64,000 bases of DNA. Source: Arthrobacter sp. TMP15. Its GTDB lineage: Bacteria; Actinomycetota; Actinomycetes; Actinomycetales; Micrococcaceae. The number at the start of each line of letters is the position of its first letter. Positions within the stretch are counted from its first letter, which is position 1. The DNA is taken from the NCBI RefSeq assembly GCF_039529835.1, contig NZ_CP154262.1, forward strand, positions 3,224,001-3,288,000, given 5' to 3'. Shown here piece after piece: positions 3,017 to 59,244 of the stretch. A program made the translations under genes and the position numbers. Under the pieces are notes generated by a model, which ran no database searches, was not told the origin of the DNA, and saw only the letters and a list, made by a program, of their open reading frames with translations.

Positions 3017-3762
3017 ACGTGTAGTCCGCATTCTGTTTTGGAGGTTCCGGCCCAGCGTCCACTTCTTGGATCGGCGCCGGGGGCCACTTTGTTGGTGCAG
3101 GGCGCGCAGCCGATGGATGGGTAACCCTGGCCCAACAATGGGTTCACCGGCAAAAGGTGCTCCTCGGAGTAACGAATCAATTCCTCATACGTCCAGGTGG
3201 CAACGGGATTCACCTTGATCAGGCCGTTCTTTTCATCCCATTCCACCAAGGGTGTGTTGGTTCGGGTGGGTGCCTCGTCGCGTCGCACGCCAGTGAACCA
3301 GAGCTCGTAACCTTGCAAGGACCGGGACAACGGCTCCACCTTACGCAGTGCACAGCATTGGGCAGGATCACGGGCGAAGAGGTCTTTGCCCAGTAGCGAG
3401 TCCTGCTCTGCCACGGTGTTTAGCGGCAGCACATCAACCACGTTCACACGCAAGTTCTCCGCCACCTCATTACGCGTCGCGTAGGTTTCCGGGAAGTGGT
3501 ATCCGGTGTCCAGAAACAGCACATCAACACCGGGGAGTTGCTCGGCCACCAAGGCCGGCAGGACGGCGTCGGCCATGGAACAGGCGACGGCGGCCGCACC
3601 CGTGGCGAAATTCGCCACCACCCAGCCAATGACGGCCTGTGCCGACGCATCCGCGCTTAGTTCCGCGGCACCGGCGGTGGCGAGCGCCCGTAGCTCAGTC
3701 TCGGAGCGAAGCTCCCTGGCTTTAGCGGATTTTTCTGACACGCTTGTGCTTGAAAAACTCAC
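3013..3762 (-). CDS. cysH: Adenylyl-sulfate (APS) reductase, CysH family
   Basis: 249 residues. It reduces activated sulfate to sulfite with thioredoxin. Two cysteine pairs, C136-C137 (QCCALRK) and C219/C222 (GCAPCT), are the ligands of the 4Fe-4S cluster that marks APS reductases rather than cluster-free PAPS reductases. The catalytic cysteine is C245 in the C-terminal ECGLH tail. With no cysC gene visible, this supports a direct APS route. The GTG start at 3762 overlaps the sir stop (GTGA), and the stop overlaps the cysD ATG. Substrate preference is inferred from the cysteines. Confidence 0.95.
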   Translation of the reverse strand: MSFSSTSVSEKSAKARELRSETELRALATAGAAELSADASAQAVIGWVVANFATGAAAVACSMADAVLPALVAEQLPGVDVLFLDTGYHFPETYATRNEVAENLRVNVVDVLPLNTVAEQDSLLGKDLFARDPAQCCALRKVEPLSRSLQGYELWFTGVRRDEAPTRTNTPLVEWDEKNGLIKVNPVATWTYEELIRYSEEHLLPVNPLLGQGYPSIGCAPCTNKVAPGADPRSGRWAGTSKTECGLHV

Positions 3763-5495
3763 GTCAGCAGCTCCTCATCTACTCTGTGGGCAAACTCGGC
3801 AAAAGTTTCATCAGCCAGACGGTGGGACGCATAGCTGCGAATGATCCGCTCCACGTAATCGGACAGCTCATCGACAGCCACCTTGAGCCCACGAACGGTG
3901 CGCCCCAGCCCAGCCTCTTCCCGGTCTCGTGAGGCCAGCCCACCACCAAGGTGAACCTGAAAACCACCTGTTGTGCCGCCGTCGTCCGTGGGAACAACAA
4001 TGCCCTTGAGCCCAATATCTGCTGTCTGAATCCGAGCACAGGAGTTGGGGCACCCGTTGATATTCAAGGTGATGGGCGCTCCCAGCACGCCCGCGTCAAC
4101 CAAATCCTTCATGCGCTCTTCCAGCTCTTCAATGACGTGGATGGCGGTGTCCTTGGTATTCACGATCGCCAGCTTGCAAAACTCAATGCCTGTGCAGGCC
4201 ATGGTGTTGCGGCGGAAAATTGAGGGCCTGGCTGACAATCCGAGAGCGTCCAGTTCGGCAATGACGGTTTCCACATTCGCTGTGTCTATGTCCAAAGCCA
4301 GAATTTTTTGATGCGGGGTAGTGCGCAACCTGTACGAACCCTGCACTTCCAACAAGTCCGCCAGGGCAACCAGGGTGTCCCCGGAGAGCCGACCCACCAA
4401 GGGGCTGGAGCCGATGAAGAACTTGCCATCCTTTTGTTCATGGACGCCCACATGGTCGCCGAAATCCTTGGCTTGCGGCGGAACAATGCCGTCCGGAAGT
4501 TTGCGGCCCAAGTATTCTTCTTCAAGGATTTGACGGAACTTTTCTACGCCCCAGTCTGCGATCAAGAACTTCATGCGGGCCTTGTTGCGCATCCGGCGGT
4601 AGCCATAGTCGCGGAAAACGCTGGTAACGGCTTCCCAAACTGCGGGCCCATCTTCCGGCGGCACAAATACGCCAGCCCGCTGGGCTAGCCGGGGTGCTGT
4701 TGAAAGTCCGCCGCCTACCCAGAGGTCGTAGCCGGGACCCAGCTCAGGGTGCAAAACACCCACAAAAGAGACATCGTTGATCTCGTGCACAGTGTCTTGG
4801 TTGGGGTGGCCGGTGATGGAGGTTTTGTACTTGCGGGGCAGGTTGGAGAATTCTGGGTTGCCGATGAAGCGTCGGTTGATTTCCTGGATGAAATCCGTCG
4901 GATCAAGGAGTTCCTCCTTGGCTATCCCAGCCACTGGCGAGCCCAGGATTACGCGGGGAACATCGCCGCAGGCTTCAGTAGTTGAAAGCCCAACGGCTTC
5001 CAGACGGCGCCAGATTTCAGGCACATTTTCCACTTCAACCCAGTGCAGCTGGATGTTCTGCCGGTTGGTCAAATCTGCAGTGCCCCGCGCAAAATCGCGG
5101 GAAAGTTGACCAATAACGCGTAGTTGTTCGGTGGTGAGGCGCCCGCCGTCGATCCTGACGCGCAGCATCAGGAACTTGTCCTCGAGCTCGTGCGGTTCAA
5201 GTGAGGCTGTCTTGCCGCCGTCGATCCCCTGTTTACGCTGCGTGTACAGTCCCCACCAGCGGAAGCGTCCGTGCAGGTCGTCATCAGTGATGGAATCAAA
5301 ACCTTGTTTGGAATAAATAGTCTCGATGCGGTGACGCACGGACAAACCGTCATCGTCCTGCTTCCATACCTCAACCGGGTTCATGGGAGCCTTGCCGTCC
5401 ACCTTCCACTGGCCGTGGGGCTTAGTGGCGGGACGTCTGCGGGTGGCGGGAGCATCGGCCGCGGCGCTCGCTCCGGCTAGAGCTGTCTGTGTCAT
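3759..5495 (-). CDS. sir: Assimilatory sulfite reductase (ferredoxin type), siroheme/4Fe-4S
   Basis: 578 residues from the ATG at 5495 (MTQTALAG). An ATG 13 codons upstream is possible but unlikely. It carries out the six-electron reduction of sulfite to sulfide. The siroheme-4Fe-4S ligands are C434 and C440 (ACTGIEFC) and C482 and C486 (GCPNSC), the arrangement of nitrite/sulfite reductase half-domains. The position ahead of cysH-cysD-cysN with overlapping codons argues for sulfite rather than nitrite as substrate. It is the first gene of the four-gene operon. No clear Shine-Dalgarno sequence precedes the start. The siroheme cofactor could come from SirB encoded upstream. Confidence 0.93.
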   Translation of the reverse strand: MTQTALAGASAAADAPATRRRPATKPHGQWKVDGKAPMNPVEVWKQDDDGLSVRHRIETIYSKQGFDSITDDDLHGRFRWWGLYTQRKQGIDGGKTASLEPHELEDKFLMLRVRIDGGRLTTEQLRVIGQLSRDFARGTADLTNRQNIQLHWVEVENVPEIWRRLEAVGLSTTEACGDVPRVILGSPVAGIAKEELLDPTDFIQEINRRFIGNPEFSNLPRKYKTSITGHPNQDTVHEINDVSFVGVLHPELGPGYDLWVGGGLSTAPRLAQRAGVFVPPEDGPAVWEAVTSVFRDYGYRRMRNKARMKFLIADWGVEKFRQILEEEYLGRKLPDGIVPPQAKDFGDHVGVHEQKDGKFFIGSSPLVGRLSGDTLVALADLLEVQGSYRLRTTPHQKILALDIDTANVETVIAELDALGLSARPSIFRRNTMACTGIEFCKLAIVNTKDTAIHVIEELEERMKDLVDAGVLGAPITLNINGCPNSCARIQTADIGLKGIVVPTDDGGTTGGFQVHLGGGLASRDREEAGLGRTVRGLKVAVDELSDYVERIIRSYASHRLADETFAEFAHRVDEELLT

Positions 5496-5602
5496 GGAAC
5501 GAGCGTAGATTGCCTCATGCCCGGCAACAATCACGAATGCAACGCGGCTTCACCTCGGGCAACAATTCGTCACACCGACCATTTTGGTGCTCAAGTATGC
5601 GC

Positions 5603-5655
5603 CGCTTCTGCGCGCCGTTGTTCGCCAACGTTGCGCCACAATGTTTGCTGCACAA
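5603..5655 (+). repeat. Intergenic palindromic repeat family, copy A (half copy)
   Basis: It shares the segments TTCTGCGCG, GTTGTTCGC and TGCGCC-CAATGTTTG, in the same order and orientation, with the copy at 6585-6660. It lacks the long complementary right arm. It lies just downstream of the DUF559-type gene at 5665. Confidence 0.6.
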
Positions 5656-5664
5656 GATCCGAGG

Positions 5665-6486
5665 TTAACGACGCGCTGAAGCGATGGTTGCCAAGGCTTG
5701 TTCCACCCACTGGAGCATAATCTCGGGGCGATAAAGCACAATGGCTGCCGGAATTCGAAGCCGCCAGACGCCATTGAGCACGTACATGGTGTCCCGCCGA
5801 AGGTCCTCAACCCATCCTTCTGGCGTGTTGTGGTACTTCTGTCCGTCCACTTCGATGCCGAGCACCCCATCCACAAGCAGGTCCAGATGTCCAGCATTTT
5901 TGATGTAGGCCTGAACCTGGACCGTGTACCCAGCATTCCTGAGCTGGTAACGTCCACACGTTTCAGCAATGGACATTGATTGCATATCAATCATGTCCAC
6001 AATCCGGCGCGCACGTGCATCTTTTCTCTTGGTGAAGACCCGCCGATACTGGGCCATGGTGCACTTCTTGAGCACCACCGCGGACTCTAAAATGCAGAGC
6101 GCCTCCATATCGGAGCTGCACTGAAGACAATGACGAAGGCAGTCCCAAAATGTAGCCCTGCCGCGAACCCGGTGCACAACACAACCCGCCACTGCCCTCC
6201 CATGAGATGTCGCCACGTGTGGTTGGGACGGACTGTGCAGAACCCACAATTTCATGCGCTCAGCCCGGCTAAGACAGTCAAGGGTGGCTAAACTCTGAGC
6301 CAAGTGCATATCGAAAGCGTCCGCACCTGGCAAGGAATAGACCCCTCGCCCACTGCGGCTTACCGAGCCGGAGGCGACGGCCTGCTGGAGCGCCCACGCA
6401 GTCACACCACCGTCCAAAAGTGCTTTCCTCGGGGCGGTCTTCCCCAGTAATGTCAATACCGTTTCAACTGACTTCTTTTGATTCAT
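5665..6486 (-). CDS. DUF559-type protein: AbiEi-like N-terminus plus Vsr-like nuclease fold
   Basis: 273 residues from the ATG at 6486; the frame stays open further upstream into a palindromic repeat, so the start is uncertain. The first 50 residues resemble the winged-helix 'AbiEi-like' domain common in actinobacteria (start of helix at ALLDGGV, then GRGVYSLP). Residues 175-273 match the DUF559/Vsr endonuclease-like core: an acidic residue in the SIAET helix, AGHLDLLVDG, then GIEVDGQKYH (210-219) and DLRRD. These are the acidic positions expected of a PD-(D/E)xK-type nuclease. Real substrates of this family are unknown. It separates sir from sirB and is flanked on both sides by copies of one palindromic repeat. 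Confidence 0.7.
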   Translation of the reverse strand: MNQKKSVETVLTLLGKTAPRKALLDGGVTAWALQQAVASGSVSRSGRGVYSLPGADAFDMHLAQSLATLDCLSRAERMKLWVLHSPSQPHVATSHGRAVAGCVVHRVRGRATFWDCLRHCLQCSSDMEALCILESAVVLKKCTMAQYRRVFTKRKDARARRIVDMIDMQSMSIAETCGRYQLRNAGYTVQVQAYIKNAGHLDLLVDGVLGIEVDGQKYHNTPEGWVEDLRRDTMYVLNGVWRLRIPAAIVLYRPEIMLQWVEQALATIASARR

Positions 6487-6584
6487 CAACCCAGCATGCG
6501 CCCACAGCTCTAAGCGCAGGAGCCCAAAGTTGAGAATGTGGATGACCTGCTGAGGAGCCCGTGCTGTGGAGGAGTAAACGCACA

Positions 6585-6660
6585 TCGATTCTGCGCGTTG
6601 TTCGCTGCGAATACTGCGCCGCAATGTTTGTGGCGCAGTATTCGCAGCGAACCACGCGCG
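6585..6660 (+). repeat. Intergenic palindromic repeat family, copy B (full palindrome)
   Basis: This is an inverted repeat with 28-base arms (6593-6620 and 6632-6659), 27 of 28 positions paired, and an 11-base loop. It is too long and lacks the T-run needed for an ordinary terminator. The left half matches copy A at 5603-5655, and a related pair of hairpins is at 59146-59222. It lies between the sirB stop and the DUF559-type gene. Confidence 0.75.
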
Positions 6661-6676
6661 GAAGAGGTGCTCGGGG

Positions 6677-7363
6677 CTAGTCCGCCCGGGACACAGCCGC
6701 GTCAAAATGTTCCAGAGCAAGTTCTGCCACCAGGCTAGAGGGCAATAGCGGCGGCGCCACGAGGTCAGCGCCGGCGCTGGCAAGCTGATCATGAAAATGT
6801 CCCGGCGCCAATAAGTAGGAGGCTACAGCAACCCCGCCAACCCCCTCAGATCGCAGCTGTGCCACGGCATCATGAACAGAAGGCTCCGCCCCAGCCCCGT
6901 ACCCGGGAAGAATCCGTTGGGGGCGCCGCACAGCTAAATCGGCGGCAAGCACCTCAATTTTTTCAGCCGCCTCTGGGCGTGAGGACCCCGCCGCCGCCAG
7001 CACTATGCCCCAATCTTCCGGCAGTGTCCCCAGACGCTCATCGAGCAGCTTTGCCAATCTTGGATCCGGTCCAAGTGGTGCAGCGGCAACCGTGTTGGCG
7101 CGGGCAGCAACAGCCTCGGCAATATCTACTTGAATGTGGAATCCCACTGTCAGTAACAATGGAACCACCACGGCCCGGATCCCAGGTGCTAGGCCTGACA
7201 ACACATCTGGAAGGGCAGGTTTCTGGACGTCGACGTAGGCTTCCATGACGCAAAGTTCGGGACGCAAAGCAGCAATCTCGTCCCGCACCTGATTGATGCG
7301 TGCCTGGCCCTGTGCATTGTTGGTGCCGTGGGCACAGGCAATCATGAGCGTCTGTAGCGGCAT
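6677..7363 (-). CDS. sirB: Sirohydrochlorin ferrochelatase (CbiX/SirB family)
   Basis: 228 residues from the ATG at 7363, which has AAAGGA nine bases upstream; other in-frame starts upstream are poorer. It inserts iron into sirohydrochlorin to give siroheme, the cofactor of the sulfite reductase encoded downstream. Two tandem CbiX-like halves are seen: the first begins MIACAHGT with the metal-binding histidine and VGFH near residue 87, the second begins at VLAAAGSS with APGHFHDQL later. A cobaltochelatase role in B12 synthesis is possible in this family, but proximity to sir favours siroheme. Confidence 0.85.
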   Translation of the reverse strand: MPLQTLMIACAHGTNNAQGQARINQVRDEIAALRPELCVMEAYVDVQKPALPDVLSGLAPGIRAVVVPLLLTVGFHIQVDIAEAVAARANTVAAAPLGPDPRLAKLLDERLGTLPEDWGIVLAAAGSSRPEAAEKIEVLAADLAVRRPQRILPGYGAGAEPSVHDAVAQLRSEGVGGVAVASYLLAPGHFHDQLASAGADLVAPPLLPSSLVAELALEHFDAAVSRAD

Positions 7364-7726
7364 GGTCAGCATCCTTTTTCGATGACTCGGTTGACTCGTT
7401 GCTGCCAATGTACGGCACAAGATACTCAAAGCCATGATTACTTTGCGCCAGAAGTCGGCCTGAATTTTTAGAGAATTGCTGATCCCGATAGCTGAACCGA
7501 TTGCGCTTTACTCCGGTGGAAGGCCCCAAGAAGAATAGCAACTGACCGGACAGAATCTGGAGCCCAAAAGGAGCCCACCTGCCACGATCACAAGAAACAT
7601 GACACTGGCCATGGCGGCTGTTGCCGCTGTAATCTCATTGCAAGCGGTGTCCTTGTTTCCGCGTCCTGCTTGACGATTACTGCTTGGCGCTTACTGTTGG
7701 GGCACAACGTATAGGAGGGCCATGTA
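7364..7726. other. Divergent intergenic region between sirB and ndh (363 bp)
   Basis: No convincing gene. It holds the leader of sirB and the promoter of ndh. A 14-bp tandem near-repeat TGCTTG-N-G-N-TTAC occurs at 7667-7694. Confidence 0.5.
7670..7697 (+). promoter_or_regulatory. Candidate sigma-70-type promoter for ndh
   Basis: TTGACG (7670-7675) and TACTGT (7692-7697) are separated by 16 bp, about 30 bp ahead of the ndh start. Strong Shine-Dalgarno TAGGAGGG follows at about 7711-7718. Assigned by eye. Confidence 0.4.
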
Positions 7727-20733: not shown

Positions 20734-20741
20734 CCGCAGAT

Positions 20742-20785
20742 AAAGCTGGCCCGCAGCAGTGCACTGCTGCGGGCCAGCTTTTTTT
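20742..20785 (+). terminator. Intrinsic terminator after the amino acid ABC operon
   Basis: Perfect palindrome with 20-base arms (20742-20761 and 20762-20781) ending in a run of seven T. It sits 9 bp after the ATPase stop and between convergent genes, so it may also act on menD transcripts. Confidence 0.9.
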
Positions 20786-20798
20786 GGGCCCTTTGCTG

Positions 20799-20851
20799 CT
20801 GTGAATTTTGCTACTGTGAATTTTGTTTCTGTGAATTTTGTTACTGTGAAT
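20799..20851. repeat. 15-bp tandem repeat overlapping the end of menD
   Basis: Three and a half copies of a 15-bp unit CTGTGAATTTTGYTA (20799-20813, 20814-20828, 20829-20843, partial to 20851). It spans the menD stop codon. Confidence 0.8.
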
Positions 20852-52565: not shown

Positions 52566-52595
52566 GCCAGTTCGGCTCCCGCCAGTTCGGCTCCC
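52566..52595. repeat. Two perfect 15-bp tandem copies
   Basis: GCCAGTTCGGCTCCC at 52566-52580 and 52581-52595, upstream of the 98-aa hypothetical gene. Confidence 0.85.
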
Positions 52596-52684
52596 GCGCA
52601 CCGTGATGTGCTCAAGTGCCGCAGAAGTAGCCGTGCCGCAGCACGCGCACCTGGCCATGCGCAGGAGTCGAAGTAGTTTGGCAA

Positions 52685-59112: not shown

Positions 59113-59145
59113 GTGGAAAACACTAGCGGATGCCCCCACCACCGC

Positions 59146-59222
59146 CGTTTCTGCGCACGGTTGTCCGCAAACCGTACGCAACAGACCTTGCTGCGCGCGG
59201 TTGTCAGCAAACCGTGCGCAAA
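59146..59222. repeat. Intergenic palindromic repeat family, copy C (two tandem hairpins)
   Basis: Two adjacent hairpins, GCGCACGGTT/AACCGTACGC and GCGCGCGGTT/AACCGTGCGC, each with a 6-7 base loop. The left flank (TTTCTGCGC, GTTGTCCGC) resembles copies A and B. It separates the surface-protein gene from the GNAT gene and could also act as a transcription block. Confidence 0.55.
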
Positions 59223-59244
59223 AGCAGTGCCGCCCGGCCCGGAT

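Follow-up and report, generated by a model that had tools for sequence, protein, structure and literature searches.

The window, by which we mean the whole 64,000-nucleotide stretch of Arthrobacter sp. TMP15 DNA analysed here, carries a nuclease-like gene between sir and a sirB-like gene, with all three read in the same direction and a hairpin element on either side of the middle gene (Table 1). A sequence-only reading of the same DNA had reported this gene, a palindrome before its start and a related sequence after its stop, all of which are real, and its placement of the gene is borne out by the domains of the two neighbours. A longer open frame runs to 6792; the family alignment starts near the ATG at 6486.

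Table 1. Positions of genes, hairpin elements and leader boxes in the window
Feature	Position	Strand	Remarks
sir	3759..5534	minus	neighbour; nitrite/sulphite reductase domains (NIR_SIR)
Downstream hairpin element	5596..5690	minus	85.3 bits, this copy being among the six sequences used to build the covariance model; outer arms kept and pairing, middle decayed
Family gene, 273 aa	5665..6486	minus	AbiEi-like wHTH N-terminal part; predicted MTES_1575/Vsr-type nuclease C-terminal part
Leader box 2	6537..6545	minus	reads TCATCCACA; spacing to box 1, 28 bp
Leader box 1	6565..6573	minus	reads TCCTCCACA; between element and start codon
Upstream hairpin element, ~94 nt	6579..6673	minus	94.9 bits; directly after sirB stop
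sirB-like gene	6677..7435	minus	neighbour; CbiX domain
Weaker lone copy	52582..52676	.	35.5 bits; covariance model
Lone copy, without gene	59139..59233	plus	60.4 bits; covariance model

The gene belongs to a family matched in 38 of 58 genomes (the window genome and 57 relatives) and in 21 of the 22 genomes of the genus, and Arthrobacter sp. H35-MC1 has a protein 100% identical to that of the window. In Pfam, all 29 aligned members match MTES_1575 (PF18741), 17 match AbiEi_4, 6 match AbiEi_3_N and 5 match DUF559; no families beyond the AbiEi, MTES_1575 and DUF559 types were found among these 29, and a Y1/HUH tyrosine transposase domain was absent from them. For the window protein itself both Pfam scores (MTES_1575 and AbiEi) fall under the curated cut-offs, and NCBIfam provided no name. 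An AlphaFold2 model of this protein (mean pLDDT 90) was compared with known structures using Foldseek, which ranked AbiEi 6y8q first (E 2.4e-4), followed by I-Bth0305I (E 0.02, the best-ranked nuclease), Vsr and 3hrl, the E values of 0.02-0.12 for these being weak (TMt 0.68 for 3r3p, 0.70 for 3hrl and 0.45 for 1vsr). A profile search against the sequences of solved structures also returned 3hrl, with E 1e-4. Seven residues (E175, D202, E212, D214, H219, D228 and R231) are invariant in 29/29 aligned members and present in the window protein. By fold and by catalytic-type residues, the C-terminal domain is a predicted Vsr-type nuclease.

Each part of the protein has known counterparts. With the Vsr-type nucleases, including the homing endonuclease I-Bth0305I (a group that we take to be the one named EDxHD), the family shares the predicted C-terminal fold and the conserved acidic and His residues; unlike them, it carries an AbiEi-like DNA-binding part and has cognate repeats on both sides. 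The N-terminal and middle fold is shared with the AbiEi antitoxin of the type IV AbiE toxin-antitoxin system, but the window gene adjoins sir and sirB, without an AbiEii nucleotidyltransferase partner, and has a nuclease domain attached. The REase domain named MTES_1575 in a HEPN survey (PMC3710099) is of the same domain family; in the available part of that survey it belongs to a large protein with multiple domains, and repeats are not mentioned there.

The upstream element has arms of 36 bp that are 92% complementary (6589-6624/6628-6663), and positions 6580-6670 folded as DNA reach -47.8 kcal/mol, with a z of -11.7 against shuffles. What had been described as a 28-base palindrome just before the start codon is a palindrome but not of that size, as the arms lie inside the larger element, whose near edge is 93 bp and whose arm is 103 bp from the start codon. 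The supposed half copy after the gene is instead a full-length element with a decayed middle, overlapping the last codons and the stop; the z of -0.7 to -0.8 obtained for it is explained by a fold that ended at 5665 and hid the full copy. The two repeats do have the same orientation, as had been noted. Allowing up to 3 mismatches, the core pattern of the element has 8 matches in 3.7 Mb versus 1 for a reversed control, and nothing in the window matched Rfam.

Matched elements are a feature of the family and not of this locus alone. Matches shorter than 200 residues, weak ones such as L030, and L144-L147 were excluded beforehand; 66 family genes were gathered, and L017, L083 and L124 were set aside for short flanks (n=63). 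The best local score between the upstream and downstream flanks of one gene was compared with those of all mismatched pairs. For 43/63 genes the flank pair exceeded the 95th percentile set by the mismatched pairs, and for 34/63 the own partner ranked first, with 0 of 20,000 permutations reaching the summed flank score; flanks taken 700 bp further out, as a control, exceeded the same percentile in 2/63. Genes with matched flanks include those of Pseudarthrobacter, Agromyces, Demequina and Gordonia, in which the spellings are quite different. A clear matched pair is missing in 20 of the 63 genes, both Cryobacterium genes among them, and in the Pseudarthrobacter set, where concerted evolution is only partial, the own flank partner ranks first in no more than 4/13 loci. 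For the 43 matched pairs the same orientation scores better in 33 and the opposite in 10, a soft measure because the elements are near-palindromic. Hairpins with z below -3 were found upstream of 28, downstream of 14 and on both sides of 7 of the 63 genes, compared with 3/126 in the control. Five genomes (L067, L068, L069, L075 and L078) have a pair of family genes, separated by about 4 kb, with differing flanks.

The arrangement around the gene is also regular. Among 38 genus genes, a model derived from the window matches upstream of 22, downstream of 17 and on both sides of 14. Where the model matches, the upstream element lies 94-135 bp from the gene in 16/22 and the downstream element begins 15-22 nt inside the coding sequence in 12/17. 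Two CCACA boxes 27-28 bp apart precede the start codon in 24/63 family genes versus 1/819 random stretches. Similarity of element and of protein are correlated over 455 non-syntenic pairs, with a weak rho of 0.20 (9/2000 permutations); by part, rho is 0.20 for residues 1-70, 0.18 for residues 71-170 and 0.07 (n.s.) for the nuclease part.

BLAST with the window element gave 6 matches at 4 places in its own genome (E up to 10), with 1 further place at E <0.01. As BLAST with this element is poor for copy counting, we built a covariance model from six copies of this genome, namely the two flanks and four found elsewhere. The consensus hairpin has 35 pairs, 11 of them changed on both sides; pairing at several positions is broken in some of the copies, which makes the covariation term slightly unfavourable (+1.45). 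The model matches 22/22 genus genomes, with at least 37 matches here and at least 3 to at least 65 per congener (n=21), both strands and training copies being counted and 150 candidates scored per genome, which makes these counts lower bounds. Distinct sites in this genome number at least 14 (12 among the matches listed, 1 in the window and 1 beside a second family gene), and 4 of these sites flank one or other of the two family genes. Most copies, counted absolutely, adjoin unrelated genes, as with any dispersed repeat. The sequence-only reading had accepted that a repeat equally frequent beside unrelated genes would speak against it. Per gene the frequencies are far from equal: 64 family-gene loci (370 kb) hold 71 model matches at 43 places, none further than about 430 bp from a family gene, against one weak match in 400 kb sampled from this genome outside the window, the loci being short (2.4-9.5 kb) so that some closeness is built in.

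Copies are mostly extragenic. By a rough custom gene caller, the centre of the copy lies inside a likely CDS for 2/10 copies in this genome versus 284/524 background positions, and for 6/18 dispersed copies in genome G003 versus 840/915. A simple CTGCGC-N-GCGCAG pattern is in 1.8- to 9.3-fold excess over its control in the 22 genus genomes (56 versus 9 here); this pattern was not used as proof because the ratio in other genera runs from 0.4 to 18. A set of 28 lone copies shows no sign of being scars of gene loss, since leader boxes are left within 300 bp of 0/28 of them.

Whether each genome's repeat follows its own gene was tested by comparing four elements across genomes. The gene of G003 has an atypical element with 36 matches at 21 sites in that genome (one weak and probably chance), whereas 16 congeners have none and 5 have 1-3. 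The copies align end to end as an element of about 87 nt (22 rows, one from G021 and one a chance match). No recent burst is seen in G003 because the similarity of the dispersed copies to the element at the gene is 72-83%, and activity of the element may be old, the copies being diverged. In G011, the resident element has 20 matches at 12 sites, with none in 12 congeners and 1-4 in the other 9. The element of G029, from another genus, has 19 matches at 10 sites, with a single match in one of 16 other genomes and none in the remaining 15. Of the matches outside the own genome, at least two are flanks of related genes (G009:C59:20441 and G019:C22:83398). Cognate dispersal was not found for the Pseudarthrobacter element (L130): its own genome yields 3 matches, of which two are the flanks of the gene itself, and the 11 other genomes yield 0-6. 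Cognate dispersal is hence seen in three genomes, from two genera, of the four tested.

The sirB-sir interval in congeners shows how the site looks without the gene. The family gene lies between sirB and sir in 0/21 congeners, which settles one objection that the sequence-only reading had raised against itself, a sir-gene-sirB order fixed across the genus. Seven of the 21 (G006, G007, G008, G011, G018, G019 and G021) have a lone element -20 to +41 bp from the end of sirB; by the covariance model, G001 and G016 have an element elsewhere in the gap and twelve congeners have none. A match in G010 beyond the sirB start falls outside the gap, and a second, weak match in G011 (E 0.049) was left out. 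The lone element matches the flanks of the resident gene better than those of other congeners in G011 only, of the seven; the flank of the window genome scored high for most gaps because it includes the shared sir promoter. The gap itself is variable, at 0.9-3.8 kb in 6/21 congeners (L045, L047, L048, L051, L058 and L059), and some larger gaps contain unrelated genes, such as a thioredoxin-like one in G016 judged by eye (open frames were examined in three).

We consider it fairly probable that gene and flanks form the unit of a REP-like system that is served by a Vsr-type nuclease in place of a RAYT. Under such a mechanism, the AbiEi-like N-terminal part would recognise the palindromic element, as family knowledge and the weak protein-element correlation suggest, and the C-terminal nuclease, like Vsr or I-Bth0305I, would nick or cut at it. 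Repair or replication of the cut would put new copies of the element into other extragenic positions and could keep the two flanking copies alike. Gene and element would change together, giving each lineage its own spelling, which is consistent with the correlation. At sirB-sir, the unit would occupy a place that holds a lone element in the seven congeners. The proposal in the sequence-only reading of a small mobile unit, in which the nuclease acts on its own repeat, gains from the demonstrated association of gene and element, from the cognate dispersal demonstrated in three of four genomes, and from the distribution of the usual mover, as Y1_Tnp (PF01797) is present in 2/22 genus genomes (G016 and G019) and absent from the window genome, G003 and G011; the binding, cutting and movement in that proposal are what we infer from these observations.

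Comparison with REP-RAYT systems, drawn from parts of two descriptions (Nunvar 2010, PMC2817692; Bertels and Rainey 2011, PMC3116915), reveals both likeness and difference. In both, palindromes flank the gene on both sides, palindrome and protein diverge together, cognate repeats are abundant where the gene is (here in 3/4 tests), and copies are mostly extragenic. As in REPINs, the element is an extragenic doublet of about 90 nt, seen by eye in the G003 alignment, that forms one long hairpin. The enzyme differs, combining AbiEi and a Vsr-type nuclease where RAYTs are HUH/Y1 proteins, and the flanks here are mostly in the same orientation whereas RAYT units, in the portion of Nunvar 2010 considered, are flanked by inverted REPs. 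The repeat has no GTAG-type head (by eye in the element alignments), and it occupies 10-21 sites compared with the more than 100 copies said to be usual for REPs.

One alternative would be that the elements are ordinary REP- or terminator-like palindromes spread by other machinery, and that the nuclease gene inserts into them or recombines between them. The lone elements beside sirB fit such a reading, as does the prevailing same orientation of matched flanks, which recombination between repeats would produce. Ordinary genes can likewise be bracketed by two elements, as in G014 (L228 1019-3013, TetR- and SDR-like by eye), and the Pseudarthrobacter element gave no cognate dispersal. Furthermore, model counts do not track presence of the gene: G009 and G015, which have it, show at least 3 matches each, and G017, in which none was detected, shows at least 4 along with many matches to the CTGCGC-N-GCGCAG pattern. 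This reading is nevertheless unlikely, given that flank pairs match in 43/63 genes despite spellings that differ between genes, that the atypical element of G003 follows its gene, and that Y1_Tnp is missing from 20/22 genomes.

Homing could also be considered, with the nuclease cutting lone elements as targets and copying its own gene into them, and the elements spreading by other means. The best-ranked nuclease fold, at E 0.02, is indeed that of a homing endonuclease domain, I-Bth0305I, and in seven of the 21 congeners a lone element at sirB takes the place of the element-gene-element order seen here. Elements outnumber genes, however, with 0-5 gene matches per congener versus at least 3 to at least 65 element matches, and both flanks are whole elements instead of the halves of a split target, and we regard homing as quite improbable.

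The leader boxes resemble what we take to be actinobacterial DnaA boxes, and from this resemblance it is possible that the gene is timed to replication or autoregulated through these boxes. Another form of autoregulation would have the AbiEi-like part bind the upstream palindrome as an operator, the other copies being operators of a regulon or decoys. AbiEi antitoxins are described, in the part of the source considered (PMC7319586), as binding inverted repeats in their own promoter, the predicted fold matches AbiEi, and the spacing of the upstream element is steady. The downstream copy, starting inside the coding sequence, would be an odd place for an operator, and the leader box pair looks more operator-like than the element. 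By the same rough gene caller, 0/18 dispersed copies in G003 (one side unknown) and 1/10 copies in this genome (5 unknown) lie between divergent genes. We thus hold it very unlikely that the element is chiefly an operator. Intrinsic termination as the sole explanation was rejected, since terminators require neither a cognate spelling nor a matched pair around one gene family.

Extending the nuclease-served reading, it is conceivable, at somewhat less than even confidence, that these elements represent REP-like selfish DNA of a second class, one that evolved independently and in which palindromes of Actinobacteria are spread by an AbiEi-carrying Vsr-type nuclease; the gene would perhaps be timed to replication, with the element cut at the fork or close to it and the gap filled from another copy. 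How REP-like repeats come about in genomes with no detected RAYT is an unanswered question, which this candidate enzyme addresses. With enzyme, element and private spelling tied together in several genomes, the question is reducible to a binding and cutting assay. If true, the reading would point to a possible role of the nuclease genes presumably labelled DUF559 or AbiEi-family proteins in current databases. A 2013 survey (PMC3733652) reports, in the section considered, no association of CGTC repeats with transposase genes. Among open-licence literature searched by title and the start of the abstract, no papers were found that connect dispersed palindromes with DUF559, MTES_1575 or Vsr-type genes, an absence that is weak evidence.

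Other repeats are present in the window. Strong hairpins with terminal T runs at 621-691 and 20735-20788 are probably ordinary terminators, and a short tandem repeat of 15 bp lies at 20792-20851. Among the genomes used, NZ_JADHDY01 (L108, L113 and L122), named Sporosarcina beigongshangi REN13, has contigs equal in length to three of those of congener G012, and its name looks wrong.
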